Origin: a virus
DNA: 40,327 nt
Virus record (IMG/VR): IMGVR_UViG_3300049491_000546
Location: 1 to 40,327 of that record
Reading direction: 5' to 3' (one strand)
The first letter of the stretch is position 1. Each line of letters starts with the position of its first letter. Below are positions 12,171 to 37,172 of the stretch, piece by piece. A program made the translations under genes and the position numbers. A model generated the notes under the pieces. The model ran no database searches. It was not told the DNA's origin and saw only the letters and a list, made by a program, of their open reading frames with translations.

Positions 12171-12830
12171 CTACTCCGACTCGGGCATCGCCAACTGGAT
12201 CAGGAACGAGTCAGCGACGACGAAGTTCTGGCACCACTTGCCGTCCGGCCCCTTCCCCGGCCAGATCGCGGTGGCCGTCATGTGGCCGAGCGTCTGCCCG
12301 AGATCGCAGTGGATCTCGAAGCCGCACTCGCGCACCCGCTTGCAGAACAGGAAGTCCTCTGACATCTCGGCGCGGCGCTCGAACACGGGGTAGCCGGGGA
12401 ACTCCTCGCGCACCGCGTCGAGGACGTGCTTGCGGATCAGCATCCCGGCCGAGCCTGCGCTGTGGATCTTCACGAGGCCCGACGTTGCCGCCCGCGTCAG
12501 GTCGATGACGTGGCCCTCGTCGTCCACTCGCACGACGGGAGCGAAGGGCCGCTGGCGCATCAGGCAGAGCGGGACGACGACATCGACGTTGTGGTCGAGG
12601 AGGCGCATCAGCAGGTCGGGGTGGAAGCAGTGGTCGTCGCCCATGATGAACAGCCACTCGCCCTCCATCTTCTGCGCGAGCTGGCTCATCCCGTTCGGGA
12701 TGTCGGTGCCGTACTGGTACAAGATCGAGCTGCCTTCCGGCGTCAGCAGCCCCGTCATCGACTCGGTGAACGCCGTGTAGCGCCCCGTCTCCTGCACACA
12801 GATCCCCACAGTCCCCGGCGGGTGCGTCAT
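12171..12830 (-). CDS. Putative GT-A glycosyltransferase, tandem paralogue D
   Basis: This 219-residue protein is the last of four related genes. Its ordered motifs are GICVQETGRYTAFTESMTGL at the N-terminus, a DXD-like FIMGDDH (about residues 61-67) expected to bind the metal-nucleotide sugar, a conserved core AGSAGMLIRKHVL, the acidic SEDFLFCKRVRECGFEIHCD, then LGQTLGHM. This is a compact GT2-like fold lacking long acceptor domains. ATG 12830 overlaps the stop of paralogue C (ATGA). Donor and acceptor are unknown. The family call rests on motif order shared with the three neighbours. Confidence 0.72.
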   Translation of the reverse strand: MTHPPGTVGICVQETGRYTAFTESMTGLLTPEGSSILYQYGTDIPNGMSQLAQKMEGEWLFIMGDDHCFHPDLLMRLLDHNVDVVVPLCLMRQRPFAPVVRVDDEGHVIDLTRAATSGLVKIHSAGSAGMLIRKHVLDAVREEFPGYPVFERRAEMSEDFLFCKRVRECGFEIHCDLGQTLGHMTATAIWPGKGPDGKWCQNFVVADSFLIQLAMPESE

Positions 12831-13501
12831 CCTTGCTCCTTCAGGTCGTCGCCGATCGGGAGGCCGACGTTCATCGCCTGCGCGACGACGAGGGTCGCGA
12901 GCCAGCCGGAGTCGGGCATGTAGGTGGGCACCACGTTGATCGGCGTGATGTGACCGAGCCGCGCTTCCAGATCCACGAAGATCGGGAAGCCAGCGGCGAC
13001 CGCACGATCGCAGAAGTAGAGATCCTCGGAGTGCTGGTCGGTGTGCAGGAACCAGGGCTGCGGCAGCTCGTAGAACACTTCCGAGCGGATCAGCATCCCG
13101 CCCGTCCCGGCAGCGACGACAGGGACGATCCCCGTCCCCTCGTGGGCCGAGAGGTCGAGCGCCGTGTAGAGGCCGTTCTCCTCCTTCGACCCGTAGGCGA
13201 TCGGCCAGAACGGCGGCTGGCGCAGCAGATACAGGCTCGCCACGATCGGCTGCTCGCGCGAGAGAAGCTGCAACAGCAGGTGAGGCGGGAACGAGTGGTC
13301 GTCATCGAGGAACAGAATCCACTCGGAGCCGCGTTCGAGCGACTGCTCGACCAGCCAGTCGCGGCTCGCCCCGCGCTCGGGGCCGACCTTGAACTGGAGG
13401 CGGGTGTTGACCGGCATCTTCGTCAGCAGACCCGTGAGGCACTCCGTGAACTCCGTGTACCTCGCCGTCGCGTCGGCGATCACTCCTACCGTGCCGCTCA
13501 T
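12827..13501 (-). CDS. Putative GT-A glycosyltransferase, tandem paralogue C
   Basis: This 224-residue protein starts MSGTVGVIADATARYTEFTE. ATG 13501 is preferred because it overlaps the upstream stop (ATGA); the frame further upstream is spurious. It has RGASRDWLVEQSLE before the DXD-type FLDDDH (about residues 64-69), then AAGTGGMLIRSEVF and SEDLYFCDRAVAAGFPIFVD, followed by LEARLGHI. The arrangement is the same as in its three neighbours, and the acidic triplet is well placed for a metal-dependent GT-A enzyme. Probable role: transfer of one sugar in a phage-encoded glycan, with an unidentified acceptor. Confidence 0.75.
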   Translation of the reverse strand: MSGTVGVIADATARYTEFTECLTGLLTKMPVNTRLQFKVGPERGASRDWLVEQSLERGSEWILFLDDDHSFPPHLLLQLLSREQPIVASLYLLRQPPFWPIAYGSKEENGLYTALDLSAHEGTGIVPVVAAGTGGMLIRSEVFYELPQPWFLHTDQHSEDLYFCDRAVAAGFPIFVDLEARLGHITPINVVPTYMPDSGWLATLVVAQAMNVGLPIGDDLKEQG

Positions 13502-14160
13502 CCCTCTCCCTTCGTGTGATCCATCGGCATCATCACCGAGGTTCCGTCGGCGTACTTGAACTCGGCGCACCAGCCCGCGTCCGTCGGCACCGGGAACACG
13601 GCGGCGGGAGCGATGTGGCCCATCCGGCAGCCGGTGTCGAGGATCATCGGAATCCCAGCCTCGGCGAGCCGGTTGGCGAAGAACATATCCTCGCCCCACG
13701 CCTCCGAGTAGACGAACCAGGGAGGCCCGAGCTGGCGCAGCACATGCGAACGCACGAGCAGCCCCCCGGTTCCCGTCGCGGCCACTTGGACGAGGTTGTT
13801 GTGGCCGACGGAGTTGAGGTCGAGCGTCTGATAGAGGCCGTTCTCGTCGCGACCCGCGTAGGCGGTCGGCAGGAACGGCGCGGCCCGCTGCACGATCAGC
13901 GCCGACACGACCTGCTGTTCGAGCGCCAGCAGCCGAGTCAGGGTGCCTGTCGGGAACGCCTGGTCGTCATCCACGAAGAACAGCCAGTCATAGCCTCCGT
14001 CGAGACACGCCTCCACCAGCGAGTTGCGGCTCGCCCCCCGGTTCGCACCGAAGCGCCACTCGATCTTCGTGTCCTCCGGCTTCACGAGATCAGCGAGGCA
14101 CTGGGAGAACCAGTGGTAGCGACCGGCGAAGTCGGCGATGATTCCGATCATCCCGCTCAT
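13498..14160 (-). CDS. Putative GT-A glycosyltransferase, tandem paralogue B
   Basis: This 220-residue protein starts MSGMIGIIADFAGRYHWFSQ at ATG 14160, overlapping the stop of the upstream paralogue. It has ANRGASRNSLVEACLDGGYD, the acidic FFVDDDQAF (DDD about residues 64-66), TGTGGLLVRSHVL, GEDMFFANRLAEAGIPMILD and GCRMGHI. Except for the DDDQ versus DDDH detail it follows paralogue C closely, so the two are probably a recent duplication. Substrates are unknown. Confidence 0.75.
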   Translation of the reverse strand: MSGMIGIIADFAGRYHWFSQCLADLVKPEDTKIEWRFGANRGASRNSLVEACLDGGYDWLFFVDDDQAFPTGTLTRLLALEQQVVSALIVQRAAPFLPTAYAGRDENGLYQTLDLNSVGHNNLVQVAATGTGGLLVRSHVLRQLGPPWFVYSEAWGEDMFFANRLAEAGIPMILDTGCRMGHIAPAAVFPVPTDAGWCAEFKYADGTSVMMPMDHTKGEG

Positions 14161-14819
14161 GCGTCCCCCAGCTCCACCGAGAGCATCCAGCCTTCCGTGA
14201 TTCCGATCCCCGCCGTCCAGTGTTCCTCGCGGTTCATCGGCCACACCGAGTAGTTCGACAGATGGCCCATCCGCGCCGCCAGGTCGAGGTACATCGGGAA
14301 TCCCGCTTCGACCGCGCGAGCGCAGAACGACATGTCCTCGCCTGCGCCGTCGCGCTTGAACCACGAGTCGAACTCCATCGCCACGAACACGGAGGTTCGC
14401 ACGAGCAGCCCTCCGGCTCCGGCGGCGACGATGTCCACCAGTCCCGTCGGCGGCGCTCCTTCGAGATCGACAGGGTTCCAGGCTGGGCCTCCGTCGGGGC
14501 CGACGAAGCGGCGGTTGTAGGCCACCGGGTAGTAGGGCGGCTTGCGGTTGAAGTAGAGGCTCGCGACGATCGGCTGGTTGTGGGCAAGGAGGCCGGTCAG
14601 ATGCCCCGGTCCGAACAGCATGTCGTCGTCCACGAACCAGACCCAGTCGTACTCGTTCTCCAGCGCGTAGCGGACGACGTTGCGCCGGTTGACGGCCACG
14701 TCGATCCCGGCCTCGAAGCGAACCTCCGTCCTCGGTGGCTTCGTGAGGTTCGCGAGGCAGGAGGAGAACTGGGAGTAGCGGCCCAGCTCCGCGCAGGCGA
14801 CACCGATCACTCCGGCCAT
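14157..14819 (-). CDS. Putative GT-A glycosyltransferase, tandem paralogue A2
   Basis: This 220-residue protein starts MAGVIGVACAELGRYSQFSS at ATG 14819, overlapping the upstream TGA. It carries NRRNVVRYALENEYDWVWFV running into DDD (about residues 64-66), NQPIVASLYFNRKPPYYPVA, AAGAGGLLVRTSVF, GEDMSFCARAVEAGFPMYLD and ARMGHLS. The RKPPYYPVAY-type segment after the first domain recurs in the other paralogues as RQPPFWPIAY or RAAPFLPTAY and may line the donor pocket. A role in a shared glycan pathway is inferred from the tandem arrangement. Confidence 0.75.
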   Translation of the reverse strand: MAGVIGVACAELGRYSQFSSCLANLTKPPRTEVRFEAGIDVAVNRRNVVRYALENEYDWVWFVDDDMLFGPGHLTGLLAHNQPIVASLYFNRKPPYYPVAYNRRFVGPDGGPAWNPVDLEGAPPTGLVDIVAAGAGGLLVRTSVFVAMEFDSWFKRDGAGEDMSFCARAVEAGFPMYLDLAARMGHLSNYSVWPMNREEHWTAGIGITEGWMLSVELGDA

Positions 14820-15796
14820 CAGCGGTCGAACATCCTGCCGGGGACGCGGTACTGGCGGATGTTGCGGGAGTCCTCGACCTCGCGGCCGATCTGGTAGGCC
14901 ATCACGCCGGGGTAGCGCATCTCCGCAGCCGCGAGGACGGACGCCTCGTTGATCGCCGAGTCCTTCATCAGCACCGCGCCGTCGTGGCTGATCGCCCGCC
15001 ACCACCAGACGAACTCCTCGTCCACCCAGATTTCGATTCGCTCGGCTTCCGAAGGCTCGGCGTCGGGGTGTGGGTTGTCGTCGCGGTTCCGCGGATCACC
15101 TACCTCCGGTGGTAGCTCGTGTTCGGCGGTCAGCTCCTCGGCCGTCCCGATCGCCAGTTGCAGGCCGCTCATCACGAGGCCCGTCACCCACTTCTCCCCA
15201 TCGTGCCCCGGCGTCACGGAGGCGGTGAGGATGTGGCCGAGGCGGCAGGCCACGTCAGCGTGGATCTTGAACCCGGCGGCCACAGCTTTCTCGCAGAACA
15301 CGATGTCCTCGGAGCGCGGGCTGTTCTCGAACCAGGGTTGCGGCACGGTCGCCAGCACGTCGCGATGGATCAGCATCCCCGCGGAACCGGCAGCGTCCAG
15401 CTCGATGATCCCCTCGGGCGGAACCTCCGCGAGACTGACCGAGAGGTAGTCGGGGCCGGACGGGTCGGGATTCTTCCCGTAGTCCACGAGGGCGAAGGGG
15501 GCGCGGCGGGTGGCGCAGAGCGGCACGAGGATCGGCAGGTCGAACGCCTGCGCCGAGACGAGCAGCTTCTCCAGCAGGTCGGGGCCGAAGGTGTGGTCGT
15601 CGCCCATCAGCCAGAGGTAGTCGAAGCCGTCATCGAGACAGCGTTGGGCGAGGATGTTCTGGTTCGAGACGTAGTCGGTCCCGATCGCCACATCCTTGAC
15701 GGAGCCGCCGGGTGCCTCCAGTTGCATCATGCAGCCCCAGAACTCGGCGTAACGCGCAGCTTCGTTCGAGAGGATGCCGATCAGAACGCGGGTCAT
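14819..15796 (-). CDS. Putative GT-A glycosyltransferase with C-terminal extension, tandem paralogue A1
   Basis: This 325-residue protein is the longest and first of the four paralogues. Residues 1-220 carry the shared set: LSNEAARYAEFWGCMM, NQNILAQRCLDDGFDYLWLM ending in GDDH (about residues 65-68), AAGSAGMLIHRDVLA, SEDIVFCEKAVAAGFKIHAD, ACRLGHIL. Residues ~225-325 are an acidic linker (HPDAEPSEAERIEIWVDE) followed by an extra alpha/beta domain ending YRVPGRMFDR that the others lack. That extension might bind the acceptor or a partner enzyme. The stop overlaps the ATG of the next paralogue, and the start overlaps the coiled-coil gene (ATGA). Donor and acceptor are unknown. Confidence 0.75.
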   Translation of the reverse strand: MTRVLIGILSNEAARYAEFWGCMMQLEAPGGSVKDVAIGTDYVSNQNILAQRCLDDGFDYLWLMGDDHTFGPDLLEKLLVSAQAFDLPILVPLCATRRAPFALVDYGKNPDPSGPDYLSVSLAEVPPEGIIELDAAGSAGMLIHRDVLATVPQPWFENSPRSEDIVFCEKAVAAGFKIHADVACRLGHILTASVTPGHDGEKWVTGLVMSGLQLAIGTAEELTAEHELPPEVGDPRNRDDNPHPDAEPSEAERIEIWVDEEFVWWWRAISHDGAVLMKDSAINEASVLAAAEMRYPGVMAYQIGREVEDSRNIRQYRVPGRMFDR

Positions 15797-16017
15797 CGGT
15801 CAGGCATCGAGAGGTAATCCTGATACCTCTCGTCCCACTCGTGGGCCATCCGCTCGATCTCCGCGATGGCCTCGTTCAGCCCGCGGCGCAGAGCGGTGTT
15901 CTCCTGCTTCAGCTCGTAGACGGCGTCCGTGAGGCTCGGGAACTGCTGCTTGCGCGTCATGGCCGTCCTGGGAGGCTCCTGGGCCAGCAGGCGCAGGCGG
16001 GCGAGATCGACGCTCAT
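15793..16017 (-). CDS. Small coiled-coil protein, function unknown
   Basis: This 74-residue protein starts MSVDLARLRLLAQEPPRTAM. Residues ~30-65 form a strong amphipathic coiled coil (DAVYELKQENTALRRGLNEA, then IAEIERMAHEWDERYQDYL). It overlaps the methyltransferase-like gene upstream and the first glycosyltransferase downstream by four bases each. A coiled coil between enzyme genes could act as an oligomerisation adaptor for the modification enzymes, but that is speculation. No family is recognised. Confidence 0.75.
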   Translation of the reverse strand: MSVDLARLRLLAQEPPRTAMTRKQQFPSLTDAVYELKQENTALRRGLNEAIAEIERMAHEWDERYQDYLSMPDR

Positions 16018-16535
16018 GGCTTCATCCTGAACACGCGGGTCACGGAGCCGATCGAGTCGCAGAACTCGCCGTACAGCTCCTCCAGAAAGTCAGGCACATG
16101 CTCGGGCAGCGTCTCGGTGCCCCAGTCGTGGACGAGGAACACGGAGCCGGGAGCGCAGCGCGGCGGGAACAGCGCCAGCTCGCGTGGCTTGTTGCCGCCG
16201 TCGCAGAGAAGCGCGACAGGGCCGATCACGTTTGTCAGTTCGGCCACCTTGTCGGGGTAGCGATAGAAGTCCAGGCGCTCGAACTCAGGAGGCTCATGGT
16301 CGGGCTGAATGATGTCGAATGTGCGGAACCACATCCCTCGCGCTCGGGCCTGCGCGTCGAGGAACCAGGAGAAGCCGCCCTGGAAGGTGCCCAGCTCCAC
16401 GATCCCCTTCACCTGCGGGTTGTTGTTCAGCACCAGCTCCCAGACCATGAAGTCGCAGAGGTACTGCGCCATCGGATGCCCGCCGAAGGAGAAGTGGAAG
16501 CCGTGGCAGAAGGTGCAGTCGGCGGGGGCGGTCAC
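16014..16535 (-). CDS. SAM-dependent methyltransferase-like protein (Methyltransf_24/CmcI type)
   Basis: This 173-residue protein uses GTG 16535. It has the class I SAM-binding glycine loop IVELGTFQGGFSWFLDAQAR (residues ~45-64), a second acidic strand TFDIIQPDHEPPEFERLDFY, LLCDGGNKPRELALFP and SVFLVHDWG. The order matches the cephalosporin-hydroxylase/Methyltransf_24 group, which often methylates sugars or small metabolites. The start codon lies only seven bases after a TATAGT hexamer and no Shine-Dalgarno is visible, so the mRNA may be leaderless. It heads the transcript that continues into the four glycosyltransferases, which fits O-methylation of a glycan. Substrate unproven. Confidence 0.72.
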   Translation of the reverse strand: MTAPADCTFCHGFHFSFGGHPMAQYLCDFMVWELVLNNNPQVKGIVELGTFQGGFSWFLDAQARARGMWFRTFDIIQPDHEPPEFERLDFYRYPDKVAELTNVIGPVALLCDGGNKPRELALFPPRCAPGSVFLVHDWGTETLPEHVPDFLEELYGEFCDSIGSVTRVFRMKP

Positions 16536-16806: not shown

Positions 16807-16814
16807 ACTATAGT
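16807..16814. promoter_or_regulatory. Bidirectional -10 element ACTATAGT
   Basis: The octamer ACTATAGT is its own reverse complement, so it presents TATAGT on both strands. On the plus strand it ends seven bases before the epimerase ATG (16822). On the minus strand TATAGT lies 12 bases before the ATG at 16795. Both transcripts would have almost no leader. The core matches the other TATAGT elements in the window. Confidence 0.5.
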
Positions 16815-16821
16815 GCCCCGG

Positions 16822-17718
16822 ATGCGAGCCGTCGTGACAGGGGGAGCCGGGTTCGTCGGCTCGAACCTCGCAGCGGCGCTGGTCAAGATCGGGTGGCACG
16901 TCACCGTCGTTGACGACTTCTTCACCGGCCAGGAGGACTCGATGCCCGACGGTTGCGAGTTCGTCCGTGGCTGCGTCACCGAGTACGAGCTGATGCGAAC
17001 GGTCTGCCATCGAGCCGATCTCGTGTTTCACTGCGCTGCCCGCAACATCATCGTCTCGACCGAGAACCCGGCCGACGACTTCCGGGTCAACGCCGGAGGC
17101 ACCTTCAACGTCCTCCTCGCGGCCCGTGACGAAGGAGTCCCCCGTGTCGTCTACACGTCGTCCTGCTCGGTCTACGGGAACCGGACGAGGCTGCCGATCA
17201 TCGAGAACGATCCAGTCAGCCTGCTCACCCCGTATGCCGCGTCGAAGTTCGCGGGCGAAGCGTACTGCCAGGCGTTCGGCGCGAGCTACGGGCTAGGGAC
17301 GACGGTCGTGCGCTTCTCGAACGTCTACGGCCCAGGGCAGCGGCCCGACAACCCCTACTGCGGCGTCGTCGCCCGCTTCCTCCACGACTCGCTCGAAGGA
17401 CGGCCGATGAGGATCTTCGGCGGCGGCGAGCAGACCCGCGACTACACCTACATCGGCGATGTCGTCCGCGCCACGATCCTCGCAGCGACCGCGCCGCCGG
17501 GGAGCCTCTACAACGTCGGCACCGGCTGGGAGACATCGGTGAACCGGCTTGCCGAGCTGATCGGCGGGCCGGTCGAGCATGTCGGTCTGCGCGACATCGA
17601 CAACGTCAGCCGACGTTCGCTCGCCGCCCTGCGGATACGGAACGATCTCGGCTGGCAACCTCGCGTCGAGCTGCCGGAAGGACTTGCGGCCACGCGAGCA
17701 TGGCTGAAGGAGAGGTAG
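16822..17718 (+). CDS. NAD-dependent sugar epimerase/dehydratase
   Basis: This is a 298-residue extended short-chain dehydrogenase of the UDP-glucose 4-epimerase group. It has the nucleotide loop TGGAGFVG (residues 6-13), DD at 31-32 for the NAD ribose, FHCAARNIIVSTENP, the active-site strand TSSCSVYG (112-119), the catalytic pair Y138-x-x-x-K142 (YAASK), RFSNVYGPGQRPDNPYCGVV and FGGGEQTRDYTYIGDVVRAT. Length and motif order are normal, so it should be active. It would make a nucleotide-sugar donor in the cytoplasm for the nearby glycosyltransferases. It is the only glycan gene on the plus strand, lying between two minus-strand virion genes with its own promoter and terminator, like cargo inserted into a phage. 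ATG 16822 is preferred over an upstream in-frame GTG that overlaps the TATAGT box. Confidence 0.9.
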   Translation: MRAVVTGGAGFVGSNLAAALVKIGWHVTVVDDFFTGQEDSMPDGCEFVRGCVTEYELMRTVCHRADLVFHCAARNIIVSTENPADDFRVNAGGTFNVLLAARDEGVPRVVYTSSCSVYGNRTRLPIIENDPVSLLTPYAASKFAGEAYCQAFGASYGLGTTVVRFSNVYGPGQRPDNPYCGVVARFLHDSLEGRPMRIFGGGEQTRDYTYIGDVVRATILAATAPPGSLYNVGTGWETSVNRLAELIGGPVEHVGLRDIDNVSRRSLAALRIRNDLGWQPRVELPEGLAATRAWLKER

Positions 17719-18307: not shown

Positions 18308-19000
18308 TTACGAGGCAGGCGCGACTGTCCTGAAGTCGCAGGTTGCTGCCGGTGGATCGGTCGGCGTGTAGAACCAGCCGCCCGTTGCGAGGCTGAACGA
18401 CGACGCCCCGTAGATCGTCTCGGGGCCGTCTCCGTAGGGGCCATCCCCCCAGCAGTCGTTCGACCTCGTGAAGCCGACGAAGTCGGGCTGCGAGAAGTCG
18501 TTGTTGACCGTCTGCGGGCCGGGCGACCAGAGCGAGTACGGGAACACCCAGTGAATCCAGGGCAGCGATCCGTCCTGTGCGTCGTCCACCCAGTTCTTCG
18601 TCCAGAACTCGATCGCAACCGGGATCTGCGAGTCGCAAGCGATGTCCGTCGGGAACGAATACCCAACAGCGACCGGCACTGTCGAGTTGTCGTACAACAC
18701 CCCGCCGTCGGTCAGGAGCGACTCCAGAGGAGCCGACTTGATCGGCGTCGTCAGCGTCAGGTCGTAACGCTTCAGGATGTCCTGCGCCTTGTAGGTCGCG
18801 ATCTTGCAGCCGCAGCCGCCGATCAGGGTCGTGTCCGTGCCGGACTCGATGTTCGGCGTGACCGCCACCGAGATGATGTCCTCCAGCACGAACGAGTTGT
18901 CGGCCTCGGAGAGAACGCAGCCCGAGGTCGCGTCGATCTTGGTTACACGCAGGCGGCAGACTCCCAGGGAGATTCCGCATGGTGTTGCGCGTTGTGCCAT
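18308..19000 (-). CDS. Major tail (tube) protein
   Basis: This 230-residue protein starts MAQRATPCGISLGVCRLRVT. It resembles the major tail proteins of actinobacterial siphoviruses: KIDATSGCVLSEADNSFVLE, then VTPNIESGTDTTLIGGCGCK with IATYKAQDILKRYDLTLTTP, IACDSQIPVAIEFWTKNW, LPWIHWVFPYSLW, NNDFSQPDFVGFTRSND. The strong AAAGGAGGAGTGAG before ATG 19000 fits an abundant tube subunit. Length is normal. It is unusual in lying next to the capsid genes and far upstream of the chaperones and tape measure, which usually follow the tube gene directly. The call rests on family resemblance and expression signals. Confidence 0.72.
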   Translation of the reverse strand: MAQRATPCGISLGVCRLRVTKIDATSGCVLSEADNSFVLEDIISVAVTPNIESGTDTTLIGGCGCKIATYKAQDILKRYDLTLTTPIKSAPLESLLTDGGVLYDNSTVPVAVGYSFPTDIACDSQIPVAIEFWTKNWVDDAQDGSLPWIHWVFPYSLWSPGPQTVNNDFSQPDFVGFTRSNDCWGDGPYGDGPETIYGASSFSLATGGWFYTPTDPPAATCDFRTVAPAS

Positions 19001-23328: not shown

Positions 23329-23354
23329 TTCGCATTTTGCGGCAGAAACGAGAA

Positions 23355-29269: not shown

Positions 29270-29608
29270 TCATTCTCCGGGGTCGAGCTGGGCGATCAGG
29301 CCGACGGCGGTCGAGAGCGCGAAGGGTGCGGCGACGATGAGCGCCTCGCGGGGCCACTGCTGCCAGGCGGCCCACCAGCCGAGCGACACCCAGAAGCCGA
29401 GGCACCAGGGGCAGACGAGGAACTCCGCGATCCGGCTGCGATACCCCTGGGGCAGTGCCATCCCTTCCCGCCAGTTGCGAGGCAGGCCGACCAACCATGC
29501 CCGAGGAATGTCCAGCAGAGTGTCCATCGCGATCAGCCTGTAGATGCGGTACGCAGCCAATCCGAGCAGGATCAGTGTCCACCAGTCAGGGATGTCCCAG
29601 TCGTTCAT
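29270..29608 (-). CDS. DUF1360-type membrane protein
   Basis: This 112-residue protein starts MNDWDIPDWWTLILLGLAAY. Residues ~10-30 and ~76-105 are hydrophobic membrane-type helices, and the family mark CPWCLGFWVS lies at 66-75. This matches DUF1360, often encoded next to phage structural genes. The CPWC pair could be a redox or metal site at the membrane. ATG 29608 overlaps the stop of the preceding glycosyltransferase (ATGA). The function is unknown in any phage I recall. One idea is anchoring of the glycan-modifying enzymes, but this is speculation. Confidence 0.78.
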   Translation of the reverse strand: MNDWDIPDWWTLILLGLAAYRIYRLIAMDTLLDIPRAWLVGLPRNWREGMALPQGYRSRIAEFLVCPWCLGFWVSLGWWAAWQQWPREALIVAAPFALSTAVGLIAQLDPGE

Positions 29609-30393
29609 GTTCGGTTCGATCGTGCCAGAAGCGTCGGCTTGTCAAGTCCTTCGGGCCAGCGCATCAGGCTCGTTTTCACCTGATCGTCGCCCCACATGAT
29701 CGAGTTCAGATGCTTGCTCGCGTGGTGAGCGCCCCCGTCATGCTCGACGTAGCGGGCATACCGCGCGGCGCGGTCGGCTTCGCAGGCCCAGCCGAAATGC
29801 AGGATCGGCGTCACCGGCTCGGCGACGGTGCGGTTGCCGACCATCGTCGTGTAGATCGGGGTGCGTCCGCAGGCGAGCGCCCGGTCGTTCATCCGCCAGT
29901 GGCGGCGCGTCTGCCGGTTGTTCCAGTGGTCGGGGGGAACCTCGAAGGCGATCCCGATCGGGCGCGGCCTCCAGTCTCCGTCCTGGCGAACGTAGAGCCA
30001 CTCCTCGTCGGCTCCCCAGACCTCGGTCATCGTCAGCTTCCAGACGCCCGTCGTCCCCGTGTCCTGCATCATCAGCCGCAGCAGCTCTCCGTCGGCGACG
30101 AACTCGTCGGCGTCGATCGCGAGGATGTGGGTCGGGTGGCCTTCCATCGTCCAGTCGAGGAGCGCCTGGCGGGTGTTGCCCTCATGGGTGTAGAAGGTCG
30201 ATTCCTCCTGCCAGCGCACCTTGATCCTGTCCTCGTCCACGCCTTCCCACCAGACGGCCTGCTGGTTCCACTCGTCGGTCGAGCCGTCATCGAGGATGCG
30301 GATCTCGTCGCAGAAGTCGAGCAGGTGACGAAGGCAGGGCTGGAGGTAGCGGTCGGCTTCGTTGCGGACGACCATCATCGCGATCAGGTTCAC
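29605..30393 (-). CDS. Family-2-like glycosyltransferase
   Basis: This 262-residue protein starts at GTG 30393, overlapping the upstream TGA (GTGA), rather than the GTG twelve bases earlier. It has VVRNEADRYLQPCLRHLLDF and IRILDDGSTDE (about residues 31-41), the signature of GT2 enzymes, then EGNTRQALLDWTMEGHPTHI and the metal-binding LAIDADEFV (DADE at 94-97). Later it has TTGVWKLTMTEVW, GRTPIYTTMVGN and PILHFGWAC. A normal, complete GT-A domain. It would transfer a sugar from a nucleotide donor. Its overlap with DUF1360 and the next glycosyltransferase suggests a shared pathway. Confidence 0.85.
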   Translation of the reverse strand: MNLIAMMVVRNEADRYLQPCLRHLLDFCDEIRILDDGSTDEWNQQAVWWEGVDEDRIKVRWQEESTFYTHEGNTRQALLDWTMEGHPTHILAIDADEFVADGELLRLMMQDTGTTGVWKLTMTEVWGADEEWLYVRQDGDWRPRPIGIAFEVPPDHWNNRQTRRHWRMNDRALACGRTPIYTTMVGNRTVAEPVTPILHFGWACEADRAARYARYVEHDGGAHHASKHLNSIMWGDDQVKTSLMRWPEGLDKPTLLARSNRT

Positions 30394-31109
30394 GTCGTCC
30401 ACCACTCCCAGTAGCAGGACATCGCCTCACCGTAGGTTGCCCAGTCGCGTTGCAGGCCCGGCACCTTCTTGTAGGCGGCCGTGACGGCAGGCCAGGGGTC
30501 GGCCGGGATCATGTCGAGGGGGAAGCAACGCAGGTCGGGCTGTATCCAGCCCCGCACCGGCTCGAAGGTGTGCTGCCACTCGGTGAAGCCGAAGCGCCCA
30601 TCGGGAACCGGGGCCGGATGCTGGTCGAAGGCTTTGCGGCGCATCAGGCCGACACCGCCGATGTGGGTGGCGGGCATGTAGGTGTGGCAGACGAGCGGAT
30701 CGTCTCCCGGCATCCAGGGTGGCACCCCCGACATCCCCGGCTCCATCCCGAGCAGCATCAGCTCCGGGTCTGTCTCCAGCACGGACAACATAGTTTCGAG
30801 CCAGCCGGGCGGGACAACTATGTCATTGTCGATCTTGGCGAACATCTTGGCCTTCGAGCGGGCGAGAAAGTGGTTCATCACCCCGACGGGCGAGCCGATG
30901 TTCGTGTCCCGCACCGTCATCCCCTCGTAGACATCGAGCGCCGTCTCGTGCAGGTAGTCGTAGGTCAGTGGATGGTCGGGGGCGGCGTCGTTGTAGACGA
31001 CGAACTCGCTGACGCGGCTCCAGTCGGTGTTCTGGAGCAGGGCCGGGAGCGTGGCCTTCGTGAACTCCAGCCGTCCGTGGCAGAGATAGAGGATGTCCAC
31101 CTTGTTCAC
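30390..31109 (-). CDS. Family-2-like glycosyltransferase
   Basis: This 239-residue protein starts at GTG 31109 with GGAGGT a few bases upstream. MNKVDILYLCHGRLEFTKAT (residues 1-20) is the GT2 nucleotide strand. It then has VVYNDAAPDHPLTYDYLHET, NIGSPVGVMNHFLARSKAKM, the DXD-type AKIDNDIVVPPGW (DND at 94-96), GMSGVPPWMPGDDPLVCHTY, IGGVGLMRRKAF and an aromatic end. It resembles cytoplasmic sugar transferases that modify one terminal sugar. The stop overlaps the next glycosyltransferase start. Confidence 0.83.
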   Translation of the reverse strand: MNKVDILYLCHGRLEFTKATLPALLQNTDWSRVSEFVVYNDAAPDHPLTYDYLHETALDVYEGMTVRDTNIGSPVGVMNHFLARSKAKMFAKIDNDIVVPPGWLETMLSVLETDPELMLLGMEPGMSGVPPWMPGDDPLVCHTYMPATHIGGVGLMRRKAFDQHPAPVPDGRFGFTEWQHTFEPVRGWIQPDLRCFPLDMIPADPWPAVTAAYKKVPGLQRDWATYGEAMSCYWEWWTT

Positions 31110-31543
31110 AGTCGTATTACCTCCAGAGGTAGGCCGCGTTCGCGGGCGTTCGAGATCGTATGCAACGTCCCGGTCGAGGAGCCGTTCCAGAAGGCGATCA
31201 CGAGGTAGGGGATCAGGTCGAGCATCTGGAGGTTGCGCCGCTTCCCAGCTTCCCGGCACCAGCCGTAGCCCCGGCAGCGGCAGTCGTCGGAGTGCGTCTC
31301 CCAGTCGGCCGGGAACTTGACGACCGTGATCCCGACCCGTTCGGCAGCGGTCCCGGCGAGCCGGTCAGCCCCGGCGGCGTCTCCGTGGACGAGTATCACG
31401 TCGGCGGGCAGCTCCACGATCCGCTGGCAGATCGTCGCTGTCGCCTTCAGCGGATCGCTGAACTTGCGCGAGCCGCAGACGACGACGCGCCGCCCAGCAG
31501 GCAAGGCAGTGCCACCAGAAGGTGAAGCCGTGAGGGCACTCAC
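31106..31543 (-). CDS. DUF2493/YAcAr-type SLOG-family protein
   Basis: This 145-residue protein starts at GTG 31543, overlapping the upstream TGA (GTGA). It has VVVCGSRKFSDPLKATATIC (about residues 17-36), VHGDAAGADRLAGTAAER, VVKFPADWETHSDDCRC, GKRRNLQMLD, and VIAFWNGSSTGTLHTISNAR, typical of the DUF2493/SLOG superfamily that binds nucleotides or nucleotide-like ligands. These small proteins are common in phages of high-GC hosts; a role in sensing or processing a nucleotide ligand is the general prediction. It lies among glycan genes. Whether it is linked to them is unknown. Confidence 0.78.
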   Translation of the reverse strand: MSALTASPSGGTALPAGRRVVVCGSRKFSDPLKATATICQRIVELPADVILVHGDAAGADRLAGTAAERVGITVVKFPADWETHSDDCRCRGYGWCREAGKRRNLQMLDLIPYLVIAFWNGSSTGTLHTISNARERGLPLEVIRL

Positions 31544-32205
31544 GAATCGCGCACCTGGCGGGCCAGTTCGAGCATCCGGGTGCGCTCGGGCAGGTGCGTT
31601 TTCTGCCGCCACATCCGGTTGTCGTCGGAGGCGAACTCGCGGTCCTGCTTGTCGATGTCCACGAGCCGGAATGGTGTCAGGGTGGTGAACACGACATCGC
31701 AGGTGCGCTTGAACACGTCGGCCGGTGCTTTCGCCATCTCCCAGAGCGAGACGCCGCCCGCGAAACGTCTGAACGCCAGCCCCGGCAGGTCGCGGTGGAA
31801 GCAGGCTCCGAAGCCGACGAGGCACGAGTCCTCGTAGCCTCCGTGGCGAAACTGGCGCGGCATGTTCGCGGTCAGGAACGGCACCGGAGCGTGAGGCTCG
31901 GCTTCACGGTGGGCCTGCGCGATCGCCTCGGGGTCGCTGACGATCACGTCGTCGTCCTGCACATAGATCAGGTCGTGGGAGGCGTACTCGATCGCGGCGT
32001 AACGCCCGTAGACGGAAAGGTCTGCTGGCGGATTGCCTCTCCCCAGGTGAGTCCAGGTGTTCCAGTCTCGCCCCCCTGGCGGCTGTCGCTTCACGTATCC
32101 GTAGGAGTTGTCCCAGACCACGATCTCCCACTCCCACGGCAGCGAGTCGAGTACCGGTTCAAGATCCACGTCTCCGCGGGTGACGATGATCGCGGAGACG
32201 TTCAC
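31540..32205 (-). CDS. Family-2-like glycosyltransferase
   Basis: This 221-residue protein starts at GTG 32205, overlapping the HTH gene stop (GTGA). It has SAIIVTRGDVDLEPVLDSLP (about residues 4-23), EIVVWDNSYGYVKRQPP, GRYAAIEYASHDLIYVQDDD (DDD 84-86), FLTANMPRQFRHGGYEDSCL, ACFHRDLPGLAFRRF and an N-rich C-terminal part. The acidic QDDD triplet is the expected metal-donor site. Complete GT-A domain; acceptor unknown. Confidence 0.8.
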   Translation of the reverse strand: MNVSAIIVTRGDVDLEPVLDSLPWEWEIVVWDNSYGYVKRQPPGGRDWNTWTHLGRGNPPADLSVYGRYAAIEYASHDLIYVQDDDVIVSDPEAIAQAHREAEPHAPVPFLTANMPRQFRHGGYEDSCLVGFGACFHRDLPGLAFRRFAGGVSLWEMAKAPADVFKRTCDVVFTTLTPFRLVDIDKQDREFASDDNRMWRQKTHLPERTRMLELARQVRDS

Positions 32206-32645: not shown

Positions 32646-32875
32646 TCGTCGTCCTCGTCGCCTAATTCGCGCCGCAGCATCTTGCCGAGGTCGATGTGGG
32701 TCATGCCGGAACGAAGGTGGCTCGCGGTCTGGGCCTCCATCATCTCGACGTAGACGGCCTCGGTGGCGATCTTCATCGGGCAGGGCTGTCCCTGCCCGTG
32801 CGGCGGTGCGCCGAGCGAGATCGCGTGGCAGTAGCCGCAGGCGACCCAGCCGACGACGTTCGGGGCCACCGTCAC
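32642..32875 (-). CDS. Small zinc-binding protein
   Basis: This 77-residue protein starts at GTG 32875, overlapping the stop of the FkbM-like gene (GTGA). It has GWVACGYCHAISL (CxxC at about residues 13-16) with PHGQGQPCPMK later, then a helical, acidic C-terminus (MRRELGDEDDE type). It may chelate one metal through two Cys, His and Cys. One of about six similar proteins spaced through the right arm; likely nucleic-acid or protein contact. Function unknown. Confidence 0.7.
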   Translation of the reverse strand: MTVAPNVVGWVACGYCHAISLGAPPHGQGQPCPMKIATEAVYVEMMEAQTASHLRSGMTHIDLGKMLRRELGDEDDE

Positions 32876-33408
32876 AGGTTCCACTCCTCGGTCGGGCAGC
32901 GGAGCGCGTCCTCGACGCTGCGGCGGCGCTCGATCCACCAGTCGCGGTCGCAGGGGCAGTTGTCGCGGTGGCGGCCGTTGCCGCCGAGGCCGCAGAACTC
33001 GCAGTGCCACTCGATGATCGCCAGCTTCAGGCAGAGGTCGGCGTCGGTGGCGCAGAGATGGGGGAGGACGGTGTATTCGGCCCCTTCGGCGTCCATCTTC
33101 AGGATGATCTCCTTCTCCTCCTGGGCCAGTTCGAGGATGAACCTGGCGAGGTCGAAGCAGGGGAAGGAGGGCGCGTCAGCCTCGACGTGTCCGCCGAGTC
33201 GGGCGACGAGGAAGCCGATCTCGCCGTCGTAGACCCAGGCGACCTCCGGCTTCTCGATCACCCGCGTCTCCTCGACCTTGTAGTTCGAGTAGATGTCGCA
33301 GGCGGGGTCGTAGCCGTAGAGGATCGTGGGGGCGTAGTCCCTGACCAGATAGGGGATCGACTCGTCGCCGCCGTGCTTGGCGCAGCCCACGTCGATGAGG
33401 GCGCTCAT
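32872..33408 (-). CDS. FkbM-type methyltransferase-like protein with zinc tail
   Basis: This 178-residue protein starts MSALIDVGCAKHGGDESIPY with a SAM-like glycine loop (VGCAKHGG, residues 7-14), LYGYDPACDIYSNYKVEETR, LVARLGGHVEADAPSF and the FkbM hallmark IILKMDAEGAEYTVLPHLCA (about residues 99-118). A C-rich end (EFCGLGGNGRHRDNCPC) adds a possible zinc site. FkbM proteins methylate hydroxyls of sugars or polyketides. The overlaps with the neighbouring methyltransferase and small Zn gene suggest joint expression. Substrate unknown. Confidence 0.7.
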   Translation of the reverse strand: MSALIDVGCAKHGGDESIPYLVRDYAPTILYGYDPACDIYSNYKVEETRVIEKPEVAWVYDGEIGFLVARLGGHVEADAPSFPCFDLARFILELAQEEKEIILKMDAEGAEYTVLPHLCATDADLCLKLAIIEWHCEFCGLGGNGRHRDNCPCDRDWWIERRRSVEDALRCPTEEWNL

Positions 33409-33905
33409 GTCGCCTCGAAGGACGCGAGCGAGCCGACGACCCGCGCGGGCGAGCGGGAGCCGAGCGCGGAGGCTACCCCCTCACGGACGCTGTCCATGTC
33501 CCAGTCGTGGAAAACGAGGGTGCCGTCGCGACCCCTGGCGACGTGTTCGAGCGCCGTCTGGGTGTCGCGGGCGACCGCATCCGTGTCGTGGTCGCCGTCC
33601 ACGAACACGAGGTCGAAGTAGTCGCAGAGGAACGGGCAGAAGGCGTCGAAGTCGGCGACGACGATGGCGACATTCGCGAGGCCACGCACCGCGTCGAGGT
33701 AGTCGGGCAGGCTGTCCATTCCCGTCACCCCGTAGCCCTCCACGCCCTCGTGGCGGTCGACGGAGACGACGTATTTGGCGACGAGGCCGAGGGCAACGGT
33801 GGAACGGCCCTTCCAGGCTCCCAGTTCGAGAACGGCCTTGCCCTTCGCGAGCCGTTGCAGCTCGCGCACTTCGTTGTCGGGCAGCCAGCCGTCAGGAAGG
33901 CGCAT
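33405..33905 (-). CDS. Class I SAM methyltransferase (Methyltransf_24 type)
   Basis: This 166-residue protein starts MRLPDGWLPDNEVRELQRLA. It has the glycine loop VLELGAWKGRSTVALGLVAK (residues 25-44), VDRHEGVEGYGVTG, FDLVFVDGDHDTDAVARD (motif 4/post I) and LVFHDWDM. This is the normal Methyltransf_24 layout for small-molecule or sugar methylation. Its ATG lies just inside the stop of the GNAT gene (14-base overlap), linking acetylation and methylation genes in one message. Target unknown. Confidence 0.85.
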   Translation of the reverse strand: MRLPDGWLPDNEVRELQRLAKGKAVLELGAWKGRSTVALGLVAKYVVSVDRHEGVEGYGVTGMDSLPDYLDAVRGLANVAIVVADFDAFCPFLCDYFDLVFVDGDHDTDAVARDTQTALEHVARGRDGTLVFHDWDMDSVREGVASALGSRSPARVVGSLASFEAT

Positions 33906-34611
33906 CGTACCTCCGGTGGAACCAGAGGCTCGTCTCGACCGTCTGGAAGCCGCCCTGCTGAAAAAGCCTCTGAGCGGGGATGTTGCGGCCCTGGGTGACG
34001 ACCGTCATCTTCTTCGCCTTCTGCGAGTGCGCCCAGTTGATCGCGGAGCCGAGCAGCTCGGTGCCGACGCCCCGGCCGCGGAAGTCCTCGTGGACGGCGA
34101 TCAGGCCGATCTTCGAGGCTTCGCCGTCCAGGTGAACGGTGATGTAGCCGACCGGCTTCTGCTCGCGTTCGGCGACGAGCGTCAGGTCGGCCCAGCCTGC
34201 GAAGGAGCGCCGAATCCACTCCTCGTAGAGCAGGTCGCAGCGACCGTCAGGGAGGCTCGGGTCGGCGTAGAAGCGGGTGATCCGATGGGCTGAGTGGGCG
34301 ATCTGCTTCAGTGGCTTCAGATCCTCGATCCGGGCGAGTCGGGAGCCGCCGCCGCAGGAGATCGTGCGCCGCTCCAGGGTGACGCGCACGTCCATGAAGC
34401 GGAAGCCGTCCGCCTCTGCCTGCTGCGCCTCCTCGGGCCGGTCTGAGTCGATCAGGACGCACATCAGACCGACCGTGTTCTCGATCGCCCACTGCCCCAG
34501 CCCCTCGATCCCGTCAGCGCCGCCGACCTTCAGCCCCCAGAACTCGGTGTCCCAGTCGAGCAGACGAGGAGGGTTCGCGGCCGTCGTGCGGGTGGTGGTG
34601 CTGACCTTCAT
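33892..34611 (-). CDS. GNAT acetyltransferase, WecD-like
   Basis: This 239-residue protein starts at ATG 34611, which overlaps the previous TGA (TGATG). The N-terminal stretch RLLDWDTEFWGLKVGGADGI and length resemble the WecD-type sugar amine acetyltransferases. The C-terminal half has the GNAT acetyl-CoA site: LIAVHEDFRGRGVGTELLGS (loop RGRGVG at 178-183), NIPAQRLFQQGGFQTVETSL. It would N-acetylate an amino group, plausibly of an amino sugar (the PIG-L-type deacetylase encoded nearby could expose one). Good fold, unconfirmed substrate. Confidence 0.84.
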   Translation of the reverse strand: MKVSTTTRTTAANPPRLLDWDTEFWGLKVGGADGIEGLGQWAIENTVGLMCVLIDSDRPEEAQQAEADGFRFMDVRVTLERRTISCGGGSRLARIEDLKPLKQIAHSAHRITRFYADPSLPDGRCDLLYEEWIRRSFAGWADLTLVAEREQKPVGYITVHLDGEASKIGLIAVHEDFRGRGVGTELLGSAINWAHSQKAKKMTVVTQGRNIPAQRLFQQGGFQTVETSLWFHRRYDAPS

Positions 34612-35279
34612 CCGATACATCCTGGCGGATAGACCTTCGTCCTGCGGAAGTGGGCCATGAACACTTCTCGCCCGTTGAGCGTGAGGCGACCCTCGGAGGC
34701 GAGCCAGAGCATCGTCAGCTCGTCCGGCTCGAACACCTGCCACTGCGTCCACGCCTTCACGAGCTGGCCTTCGTCGTGAGCGGCGCGGATAAGGCCCGAG
34801 AACGCGAACTCAGCCCAGCCATTCGGCTCGGGTTCTTCCATGAATTGCTCCCAGAGCGGCTCGTCCATAAACAGGTCGCGCATCAGTGCCGTGTTGCGGT
34901 ACAGCGACCAGGGGCCGTTGACGTAGTCAGCGCAGTCGGAGTGCATGTCGATCCCCTGGAGGAACTCGTCGGTGACGAACTGATCGACGCGACCGTAGAC
35001 GCAGTCGAAGTCGGTGTGGCCCCAGAAGTCGAATCCTGTCAGCTCCTCCTTGTAGAGCAGCCCGAGCGCGGGGCGGAAATCCCAGACCTTGCCGCTGCCC
35101 CACATCGGCGGGCACTCGATGTCGAGGACGCGGCGGACACGCTCGCGGAAGGCGTCCTCGTCGTTGTCGAACAGGAACTCGTAGCCCAGCTCGTGCAGAT
35201 GCTCGGTGTTCGAGAGCCAGTGCTTCCACCAGGGCGGATACTCCCCGAAGTAGGGGCAGACGAGGCACTTCGAGATCAC
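34608..35279 (-). CDS. DUF6625-like GT-A glycosyltransferase
   Basis: This 223-residue protein starts MISKCLVCPYFGEYPPWWKH. It has CPYFGEYPPWW, KVWDFRPALGLLYKEELTGF, and the metal-binding DFWGHTDFDCVYGRVDQFVT (HTDFD at 88-92), then NTALMRDLF. This layout matches the DUF6625 family of putative glycosyltransferases, which contain the WGHxDxDxxYG strand. The stop overlaps the GNAT start; the start overlaps a zinc-ribbon gene. Substrate unknown. Confidence 0.8.
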   Translation of the reverse strand: MISKCLVCPYFGEYPPWWKHWLSNTEHLHELGYEFLFDNDEDAFRERVRRVLDIECPPMWGSGKVWDFRPALGLLYKEELTGFDFWGHTDFDCVYGRVDQFVTDEFLQGIDMHSDCADYVNGPWSLYRNTALMRDLFMDEPLWEQFMEEPEPNGWAEFAFSGLIRAAHDEGQLVKAWTQWQVFEPDELTMLWLASEGRLTLNGREVFMAHFRRTKVYPPGCIG

Positions 35280-35497
35280 GTTCGGTGCCCGGCGGCGTTC
35301 GGGCAGGTGGCGAAGTGGGAGATGAACAGCGGCCCTTCGTACTCCACGATCGCGAGTCCTTTCAGGACGTGGCCGACGCCCTGATCGACCGCGACCGTGC
35401 CCTGTGGGCTGGGTGTGTCATCGAGCGGCATCGACTTGCCTGAGCCTGTCATCTTGACCCAGCGGATCTGCGCTCCGCACGACTTGCAGACGCTCAC
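35276..35497 (-). CDS. Small zinc-ribbon protein
   Basis: This 73-residue protein starts MSVCKSCGAQIRWVKMTGSG with a CxxC (4-7), followed by KSMPLDDTPSP, and a later HFATCPNAAGHRT (about 61-73) that completes a possible zinc site. This small zinc-ribbon type is common in phages of Actinobacteria. ATGA overlap with both neighbours. Function unknown. Confidence 0.8.
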   Translation of the reverse strand: MSVCKSCGAQIRWVKMTGSGKSMPLDDTPSPQGTVAVDQGVGHVLKGLAIVEYEGPLFISHFATCPNAAGHRT

Positions 35498-36042
35498 GGG
35501 ACGTACTCGCGGAGGGTGTCGTCCATGAACCAGGGCCGGGTGTTGTCGAGCGCGATCTGCGACTCGTAGCAGCAGAGCGCCCGCATCTTGCGGATCACCC
35601 AGTCGGGGCGGAAGTAGACCTCGGTGCCGCGGGTTCGCATCGAGCCGCGTCGGTAGGTCAGGTACGGCTGCACCCGGTTGCCGAAGATGCCGTTAGCGGC
35701 GTAGCTGACGACGTTGTGCTGCTCGTGGCCGTCCTCCTCGTAGGCGGGTGCCCAGACGCGCTCGGGCGCGTGGACGCGGTCGAGTTGCGCCAGCTCGTCC
35801 AGGAGCTTCTCCGGGCCGCGAGGGTCGGTGTCGAGGATCTCAGACTGGATCATCGAGGGAACGCCGAGGTTCCAGAGCGCCCGCTCCGTCTCCTTCTCGC
35901 GGGTGGCGGCGAAGATGCCGTAGCGGTCCTCCTGCACCTGCGACTTGAAGCAGATGACGACGGTGGGCAGGTGGGCGAGCAGGGTGAAGGAGCCGAACAG
36001 CGTCTCGTCGTCGTTGTGGGGGGCGAGGAACAGATCGGTCAC
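35494..36042 (-). CDS. PIG-L/LmbE-type deacetylase
   Basis: This 182-residue protein starts at GTG 36042, overlapping the upstream TGA. The motif APHNDDETLFGSFT (residues 7-20) fits the (A)HPDDE metal signature of PIG-L/LmbE deacetylases (here PHNDDE), with ICFKSQVQEDRYGIFAATRE containing the conserved R-E pair, and HEQHNVVSYAAN providing the second metal ligands. These zinc enzymes remove N-acetyl groups from GlcNAc-type sugars. With the GNAT and ten glycosyltransferases this suggests acyl exchange on an amino sugar. Shorter than typical (220-300) but the core motifs are intact. Confidence 0.85.
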   Translation of the reverse strand: MTDLFLAPHNDDETLFGSFTLLAHLPTVVICFKSQVQEDRYGIFAATREKETERALWNLGVPSMIQSEILDTDPRGPEKLLDELAQLDRVHAPERVWAPAYEEDGHEQHNVVSYAANGIFGNRVQPYLTYRRGSMRTRGTEVYFRPDWVIRKMRALCCYESQIALDNTRPWFMDDTLREYVP

Positions 36043-36251
36043 GTCGTCTCCTCGGCAGCGAGAGGGTTCGCCTCGACCCACGCCAGGACGTGCGTACACT
36101 CGGGCCACTCGTCGCAGCAGGCGATTGGCATACCGAGAGCGCGGCATCGCTTCGCTTCGTTGATGAACCACTCGGCCTGCGCCTCGCGGATCGTCCCCAC
36201 TGCCCGCTCCCGCATCTGCTTGTCGGCCTGCTCCTGCTCGTAGGCGTCCAT
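36039..36251 (-). CDS. Small helical/Cys protein, unknown
   Basis: This 70-residue protein starts at ATG 36251, overlapping the upstream TAA (TAATG). MDAYEQEQADKQMRERAVGT is followed by helical IREAQAEWFINEAKRCRALG and a C-terminal IACCDEWPECTHVLAWVEAN. The CC/C/H residues could bind a metal. Function unknown. Confidence 0.75.
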   Translation of the reverse strand: MDAYEQEQADKQMRERAVGTIREAQAEWFINEAKRCRALGMPIACCDEWPECTHVLAWVEANPLAAEETT

Positions 36252-36454
36252 TACAGCTCCCACCACCAGCTCTCGTAGTTCGCCCCCGCCCCGTTCTTGC
36301 CGCAGAGGGTGCGGCCGGGGTTGTGGGGGTCGGCCAGGTGCATGATCCCGCGCGGCCCGACGACCCGGTTACGCGACCAATCGAGCCGGGAGAGCGTCAC
36401 CCGCTCGCAACGCTGGCAGCGCCGCTTGACAGGAGGCATGGGGCGCTCGTCCAC
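36251..36454 (-). CDS. Small zinc-binding protein
   Basis: This 67-residue protein starts at GTG 36454 (MDERPMPPVKRRCQRCERVT). It carries CQRC (about 13-16) and IMHLADPHNPGRTLCGKNGA (37-56), which can form a His/Cys metal site, and ends with SWWWEL. A CGCTATAGTTGCG element stands directly before the start; no Shine-Dalgarno is evident. Function unknown. Confidence 0.75.
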   Translation of the reverse strand: MDERPMPPVKRRCQRCERVTLSRLDWSRNRVVGPRGIMHLADPHNPGRTLCGKNGAGANYESWWWEL

Positions 36455-36469
36455 GTCGCAACTATAGCG
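36455..36469 (-). promoter_or_regulatory. Putative leaderless promoter element CGCTATAGTTGCG
   Basis: The element is identical over 13 bases to the one at 16536-16550. TATAGT (36466-36461) ends six bases before the GTG at 36454. It overlaps the last codon and TAG of the upstream glycosyltransferase, so transcription could restart at the gene border. A -35 hexamer is not evident. Confidence 0.5.
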
Positions 36470-37172
36470 CGTGGCCGAGACGTTGTGCCTTCGCCCTCTC
36501 CTGCCTCTCCACGAAGATCATCTTGTCGGCGTGGGCGTCACCGAGCGCCTTGCGGTAGGTGTCGTCCATCGGGGTGCGGCCGATCCCCCGGTGCGGGTAC
36601 ATCGGGTGCAGGTGGCGGACGACGGACGTGTGAGCGAAGGCCCATTCGCCCCGCTCGATCGCTGCTCCGCACAGCTCCGTGTCGACGTACTGGTGGCCGT
36701 AGCCTTCGTGGTAGACGATGCCGGGGCCGTCGTGCCAGGTGCCGCCGATCGTCTCGATGTAGTCGCGGGCGACGATCGGGTGGGTGGCGTGACGACCCTT
36801 CTTGACGAGCGGGTTGGCGTCGTCGTTCGTGCCGATCACCCCGGCGCGGGTGCGTTCGGCGACCGCGAGCGCCCGCACGTCCCAGCCGATCTCGAAGTCC
36901 AAATCGTCGGCTCCGAGCAGGATGTAGGGGGCGGTCGTGTAGGTGTAGGCGAGGTTCTGCTTCTTCGCGAAGTCGCCCGGCCCGGCTTCCCAGGGGACGA
37001 GGATGATCTCCTCTCCCGTGTTGGCGCAGGCGTCGTATTCGGCGTGGTCGCCGGGCGAGCAGACGAAATACAGTTCGACCTCGACCTCGGTGTTCGCGAA
37101 GATGGATTCGCAGACGAGCGATGCCCGGTGGGGCCGGTTGAGGACCGGGATGATGATCGCGATGTCGGCCAT
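36462..37172 (-). CDS. Family-2-like glycosyltransferase
   Basis: This 236-residue protein starts at ATG 37172, overlapping the previous stop (TGATG). IAIIIPVLNRPHRASLVCES (about 4-23) is the GT2 strand, then VELYFVCSPGDHAEYDA, GDFAKKQNLAYTYTTAPYIL, the metal-binding GADDLDFEIGWD (DDLD, 89-92), PLVKKGRHATHPIVARDYIE, GIVYHEGYGHQYVDTELCGA and RHLHPMYPH. Complete GT-A domain. It is the glycosyltransferase nearest the packaging genes. Donor and acceptor unknown. Confidence 0.86.
   Translation of the reverse strand: MADIAIIIPVLNRPHRASLVCESIFANTEVEVELYFVCSPGDHAEYDACANTGEEIILVPWEAGPGDFAKKQNLAYTYTTAPYILLGADDLDFEIGWDVRALAVAERTRAGVIGTNDDANPLVKKGRHATHPIVARDYIETIGGTWHDGPGIVYHEGYGHQYVDTELCGAAIERGEWAFAHTSVVRHLHPMYPHRGIGRTPMDDTYRKALGDAHADKMIFVERQERAKAQRLGHAL

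Follow-up and report, generated by a model that had tools for sequence, protein, structure and literature searches.

Why would a phage intersperse its capsid, portal and tail genes with a large set of sugar-transferring and sugar-tailoring enzymes, and on what would these act? The locus that raises this question is the IMG/VR virus record IMGVR_UViG_3300049491_000546, which we analyzed over its full 40,327 bases (the window); the record is classed as linear, a class that often denotes a fragment. Among 50,697 phage records, none has a nucleotide match to 24.5 kb of it. A preliminary description of the letters alone had proposed that the enzymes build a complex glycan on the particle, possibly against antibodies, receptors or host defence. 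In our assessment the genes are likely to form an enlarged set for virion glycosylation, conserved in the lineage and of the kind known from the phages Che8 and Corndog, with the glycan, its targets and its benefit as proposals. The phages of this lineage thus probably attach a complex sugar to their own particles, since one glycosyltransferase (GT) matches a known mycobacteriophage capsid GT family and many uncultured phages carry the set as well.

Arrangement of glycan and virion genes

Nearly all window genes lie on the minus strand. There, TerL is followed by a cassette of glycan enzymes, a DUF1360 protein, the portal, a MuF/protease fusion, GT6, the major capsid protein (MCP), a phrog_779 protein and the major tail protein (MTP), and then by five tandem GTs, fibre-type proteins, a repetitive protein, the head-tail adaptor and the tape measure. 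As family matches identify TerL, portal, MuF/protease, MCP, adaptor and tail protein (Table 1), the claim that glycan-type enzymes lie among virion genes is borne out. These enzymes occupy three slots: A between TerL and portal, B between MuF and MCP, and C after the tail genes. From GT10 to DUF1360, every pair of neighbors is joined by start/stop overlaps of 4-26 nucleotides, in an unbroken chain within the late structural region. To this extent the overlapping units of the preliminary description hold; yet its epimerase stands alone on the plus strand, outside the structural operon, and three plus-strand genes (22174-24436) keep GT6 and MCP apart.

A capsid glycosyltransferase family next to the capsid gene

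Both GT6, in slot B, and gp110 of Che8 belong to phrog_854 (4.4e-10 and 1e-99, respectively), and hhalign pairs the two with a probability of 97.1% over the domain (E 6e-11), with DD, W, PS and H residues in common. According to the passage of PMC12363180 that cites Freeman 2023, Che8 gp110 and Corndog gp38 are essential for capsid glycosylation. For cluster O phages, PMC11600133 reports three tandem GTs that follow an O-methyltransferase gene, and names capsid and tail tube as their targets.

The remaining slots connect to the same set through gene fusions and neighborhoods. In the Actinoplanes phage phiAsp2, adjacent genes encode Pas33, of the Che8 gp108 GT domain family, Pas34, a fusion of the GT11 and MT24 families (hhalign 96.4% for GT11), and Pas35, of the GT6 family; DNA methyltransferase and glucosyltransferase, the names under which the phiAsp2 genes are annotated, are annotation labels only. 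The fusion of GT11 with MT24 recurs in the contig L193; in L074 and L076 the fusion partner of GT11 is the Che8 gp109 family (phrog_1721), and in about ten contigs it is the tandem GT family. GTs of the gp108 and gp109 families are carried by relatives of the window, and in MW202711 a lone homologue of the tandem family lies between MCP and tail tubular protein A. The phiAsp2 neighbors and the GT11-gp109 fusions tie the terminase-side cassette to virion glycosylation, and taken together such associations would connect all three slots to the Che8-type set, by guilt by association. The proposed glycan on the particle is supported by this link and by the family membership of GT6.

Compared to Che8 (gp108-gp110, cluster F) and Corndog (gp38, cluster O), the window and its relatives share the gp110-, gp108- and gp109-family GTs, the combination of a methyltransferase with several GTs, and GTs that accompany capsid and tail-tube targets. 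They differ in having eleven GTs in the window instead of three, in the addition of PIG-L, GNAT, FkbM and epimerase proteins, and in the insertion of the genes at three places of the structural operon; further, the lineage is uncultured and only distantly akin. The phiAsp2 genes, which resemble the window in their families, form a compact set of three away from the portal region.

Conservation in uncultured relatives

The nearest contig, G001 (MCP 72%, portal 73% compared to the window), shares the order TerL-GT11-PIGL-FkbM-GT9-SLOG-GT8-GT7-DUF1360-portal-MuF-GT6-MCP-MTP-tandem GTs. Profile scans of IMG/VR yielded 183 relatives for GT11 and 134 for GT6. As a control we sampled relatives by their portal alone, hence without selection for GTs. 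In this sample, 51 loci have both portal and MCP, and 44 of them carry GT6 in the interval between the two; of the 48 loci that extend at least 4 kb upstream, 36 have slot-A GTs. Both features could be scored in 33 loci: 26 have slot-A GTs as well as GT6, four GT6 only, three neither and none slot-A GTs only (Fisher p 0.006, a value that is only indicative for related loci). Being kept in relatives sampled by portal alone, the arrangement goes beyond chance. Relatives lacking the block, which the preliminary description had suggested for comparison, do exist: L269 and L270 have none of these GTs in the interval before the portal.

A portal-profile scan of genome contigs for the host gave one match, the 19 kb contig L272 of a Gemmatimonadetes metagenome-assembled genome, with the cassette TerL-GT11-PIGL-GT10-GNAT-MT24-gp109-GT9-GT8-GT7-DUF1360-portal in the same order as in the window. 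This single contig is a hint, too weak to name Gemmatimonadetes as host.

Several observations weigh against a virion-glycosylation set. The sampled loci are related and hence not independent, and the GT genes of Che8 do not adjoin its capsid gene, so that gene position alone is weak evidence. In this lineage the C-termini of MCP and tail protein are Ser/Thr-rich, and the tail proteins of GT6-bearing contigs mostly end in -VTATS, -VTPSS or similar; the capsid and tail proteins of Che8 end in -KTGS and -SDGS. We rejected the enrichment in MCP as specific evidence, as it is also seen in relatives lacking GT6; not being specific to GT6 carriers, it is a lead and no evidence of a site. Finally, DNA-hypermodification clusters, too, include PIG-L, FkbM and GT2 proteins, and two distant relatives, G002 and G003, have a cluster with these types in the very interval that holds the cassette in the window.

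DNA hypermodification as an alternative

This last point makes DNA hypermodification the strongest rival to virion glycosylation, and a serious one that the preliminary description had overlooked: the terminase-side cassette would add and tailor sugars on a hydroxymethylated genome base, as do TET/5mYOX-dependent clusters, for protection against nucleases. Phage TET/TAGT clusters of this kind (PF12851, PF20691) were reportedly described by Pyle in 2024. In G002 and G003, which are near-duplicates (L027 and L025, MCP 34% compared to the window), the TerL-portal slot (L025:2687-11556) holds Tet_JBP, a TAGT-like GT, PIG-L, FkbM, GT2s, GT4 and ParB, a composition pointing to a cluster of the TET-dependent DNA-hypermodification type. 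Slot A adjoins the terminase also in the window, and C5-methyltransferase domains are present in G010, G011 and G012, though absent in the window and G001.

The resemblance thus extends to the genomic slot and, at the level of broad families, to PIG-L, FkbM and GT2 types. However, the window yielded none of the three enzymes TET, TAGT and thymidylate-synthase-like hydroxymethylase, and its slot GTs are only generically GT-A-similar to those of the clusters. Cassette relatives, among them contigs of 54, 83.5 and 101 kb, likewise gave no match to Tet_JBP (PF12851), to TAGT (PF20691, confined to G002 and G003) or to thymidylate synthase; here it has to be considered that contigs, the window among them, may be incomplete and that other base-activation chemistry exists. 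The thymidylate synthase family PF00303 is absent in 17 records, and TET occurs in only 1 of 48 portal-sampled loci. Further, the slot proteins of G003 show no alignment to the slot-A families of the window beyond generic weak GT and methyltransferase similarity; the latter are instead fused to, or adjoin, Che8-type virion GT families. Since the three enzymes were not found and the slot proteins do not align, DNA modification is less likely for the cassette of the window, and we judge it unlikely.

Glycosyltransferase candidates and their folds

The window has eleven GT-A-type candidates, five of them in tandem. The candidates of the preliminary description proved real, while its counts, ten in total and four tandem copies at 12171-15796, were each one too low. 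Only GT7 exceeds the Pfam cut-offs for a named GT family; the other assignments are based on PHROG families, paralogy, conserved acidic motifs and two structure models. DxD-type acidic motifs are present in all GT families of the window, and searches of PDB sequences with the GT profiles gave weak matches only. The expected GT-A folds were recovered in the models of two families, those of tandem GT 2 and GT9; for GT6, GT7, GT8, GT10 and GT11 the evidence is from profiles and acidic motifs, and GT10, a DUF6625 protein, is a putative GT-A enzyme.

The AlphaFold model of tandem GT 2 resembles the protein-glycosylating GT-A enzymes LH3, COLGALT1 and ppGalNAcT-2, and A197 of the archaeal virus STIV. 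Its paralogues are 34-42% identical to it. We rejected a simple recent duplication as their origin, as the five diverge deeply and, for two of them, orthologues probably exist elsewhere (limited support).

The GT9 model (pLDDT 82.5) has a weaker fold match than the tandem family (best Foldseek E 6e-5), to GT-A polysaccharide synthases, among them chondroitin polymerase (K4CP), and to SpsA. That wall and polysaccharide GTs (TarS, TarP, K4CP) are among its nearest folds would suit host envelope remodelling, in which the GTs modify a host surface glycan and thereby block superinfection or alter receptors. Similarly, an envelope role has been proposed for GT clusters of jumbo cyanophages (PMC7824862), and relatives of GT7 in GX15bay have endoglucanase and mannanase genes beside the terminase. 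Yet strong hydrophobic segments are absent from all glycan enzymes of the window (the highest 19-residue mean is at most 1.8), we saw no flippase, polymerase, undecaprenyl GT or membrane-anchored GT in the window, and library scans of its proteins did not return the membrane-embedded GtrA, GtrB or Gtr families. Phage O-antigen conversion (gtr) and capsule-modification clusters likewise combine phage-encoded GTs with a tailoring acyltransferase, but differ from the window by their membrane GT, flippase and polymerase. The glycan genes are, moreover, interspersed among late structural genes, with which they overlap translationally, and they are tied to virion GT families by fusion and adjacency. 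The lack of strong hydrophobic segments, flippase and polymerase and the overlaps in the late operon fit a cytosolic modification of virion proteins better; envelope remodelling, which the preliminary description had named as its alternative, thus appears quite improbable.

Tailoring enzymes and sugar donors

Family matches agree with the earlier assignment of a PIG-L deacetylase and a GNAT transferase (Table 1). The GNAT protein is closest to WecD (NF008212, dTDP-4-amino-4,6-dideoxygalactose acyltransferase, 5.8e-29, under the curated cut-off); WecD acetylates a 4-amino-4,6-dideoxy sugar. From three methyltransferase-like proteins, one is clear (33405), one weak (32872) and one (16014) lacks family support. 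The NAD-epimerase was correctly recognized: its closest solved structure is UDP-glucose 4-epimerase (1e-51), and its SSCSVYG motif is without the Asp-Glu pair of dehydratases. A complete pathway, as had been suggested, is not supported: besides this one epimerase, the window encodes no nucleotidyltransferase, 4,6-dehydratase or aminotransferase, from which we conclude that sugar donors would largely come from the host.

Table 1. Features of the window, with coordinates and supporting matches.
Feature	Position	Strand	Evidence
TerL	37645-39273		
GT11, GT-A candidate adjoining TerL (slot A)	36462-37172	-	phrog_14945 glycosyltransferase 1.4e-6
PIG-L/LmbE-type de-N-acetylase	35494-36171	-	PF02585 5.8e-11; likely internal start; kept in cassette relatives
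GT10, DUF6625 protein	34608-35279	-	PF20330 6.1e-22; homologue in L015
GNAT acyltransferase, WecD-like	33892-34752	-	PF00583 7.7e-17; likely start near 34620
MT24, Methyltransf_24 sugar/O-methyltransferase candidate	33405-33905	-	PF13578 6.6e-15
FkbM-like methyltransferase (weak)	32872-33408	-	PF05050 0.0028, TIGR01444 0.0016, both below cut-off
GT9, GT-A candidate	31540-32205	-	conserved QDDD motif; no family match
YspA/SLOG-family protein inside cassette	31106-31543	-	PF10686 1.3e-15
GT8, family-2 GT	30390-31112	-	PF00535 4.5e-4, below cut-off; kept in relatives
GT7, family-2 GT	29605-30405	-	PF13704 8e-7, PF00535 5e-6, both over cut-off
DUF1360 membrane-type protein	29270-29608	-	PF07098 1.7e-11; 4-nt overlap with GT7
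Portal protein	27293-29086	-	phrog_776 2.5e-91
MuF/head morphogenesis-protease fusion	25149-27296	-	phrog_859 3e-110 and head morphogenesis families
GT6, capsid-type GT of Che8 gp110 family (slot B)	24419-25120	-	phrog_854 4.4e-10
MCP	20286-21980	-	phrog_777 2e-58; C-terminus ...PSGEFPATTTALSC
Major tail protein	18308-19000	-	phrog_792 2e-18; C-terminus ...RTVAPAS
GalE-like NAD-dependent sugar epimerase	16813-17718	+	PF01370 9e-57; lone plus-strand gene
Conserved protein, methyltransferase-like by eye only	16014-16535	-	no significant family match; G001 homologue 57%
Tandem GT 5 (slot C), extra C-terminal domain	14819-15796	-	paralogue alignment; phrog_1574 1.7e-4
Tandem GT 4	14157-14825	-	paralogue alignment; phrog_1574 6e-10
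Tandem GT 3	13498-14166	-	paralogue alignment; PF13641 0.002, below cut-off
Tandem GT 2 (modelled)	12827-13504	-	AlphaFold2 pLDDT 90; Foldseek
Tandem GT 1	12171-12830	-	phrog_34859 glycosyltransferase 4e-8; paralogue alignment
Head-tail adaptor	3315-4433		

A possible division of labor

The substrates, linkages, order of steps and benefit that we propose build on family relationships, gene order and the GT-A folds of two families. GT6, encoded beside the capsid gene, probably places the first sugar onto MCP, as its membership in the Che8 gp110 family suggests. The terminase-side cassette (GT11, GT10, GT9, GT8, GT7, PIG-L, GNAT, MT24, FkbM) would probably extend and tailor the glycan primed by GT6, using mainly nucleoside diphosphate sugars of the host as donors: PIG-L would strip N-acetyl groups, GNAT re-acylate the amino sugar and the methyltransferases cap hydroxyls of the glycan. 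Tail-tube or fibre-type proteins are the probable substrates of the five tandem GTs, which are encoded next to the genes for tail and fibre-type proteins.

Four neighboring fibre-type proteins (9348-12141, minus strand), one with a LamG domain, have a common C-terminal tag (GGRGASW, HGRGAA, GGKGASW, AGRGANR), and similar endings are found in G001, L136 and L159 (LGRGAVR, SRGTSWV, LGRGAGW, SRGVSWG). The tag is possibly a targeting or modification signal.

In its most extended form, our proposal is a three-slot system, in which GTs encoded by their targets would prime separate virion proteins, the terminase-side cassette would build a shared, methylated glycan containing amino sugars, and the C-terminal G(R/K)GA-type tag may mark the fibre-type proteins, with a slot that would be exchangeable for a TET-type DNA-glycosylation cluster and thus an interchangeable phage glycan module. 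We put this combination forward tentatively and regard it, as a whole, as doubtful. A looser alternative is that GT6 acts on the capsid while slot-A cassette and tandem GTs act on separate substrates (DNA, host surface, fibres), with location as their only common feature. The three slots are indeed physically separate, slot-A GTs are lacking in four portal-sampled loci that have GT6, and the TET-bearing G002 and G003 retain GT6 beside MCP though their slot A differs; however, the fusions between slot-A, slot-C and Che8-type families oppose such a mixed function, which we consider highly improbable.

Other genes of the window

Two of the plus-strand genes between GT6 and MCP, at 22174 and 23666, have no Pfam match, the former resembling a DNA-binding regulator by eye; G003 likewise has opposite-strand genes in this interval. 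An HNH endonuclease gene (19059-19469, plus strand) lies opposite to its neighbors, the genes of the major tail protein and the phrog_779 protein. The repetitive protein (4435-7644, minus strand, 1069 residues), flanked by the head-tail adaptor and fibre-type genes, consists of basic proline-rich degenerate repeats without a family match and has a homologue in G001. Homologues of the YspA-type SLOG protein occur near the cassette or the terminase in several relatives; this protein was also the sole, weak match (to ShosA) in a PADLOC search of the window, which found no defence system.

Implications for virion glycosylation

A few cultured mycobacteriophages are established cases of virion glycosylation, for which escape from mammalian antibodies is the proposed advantage. 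The principle is thus known; new, as far as we have seen, are the size of the cassette, its tailoring set, the three-slot layout and the wide conservation in an uncultured lineage. Clusters for protein glycans and for DNA glycans can share one genomic slot and be mistaken for each other in annotation. The cassette offers a defined set of enzymes for tests. Its far larger size, its conservation in many uncultured metagenome phages and its place among terminase, portal, capsid and tail genes suggest that glycans on the virion are an old trait which serves another purpose, such as stability, the tuning of host range or shielding from bacterial defences.

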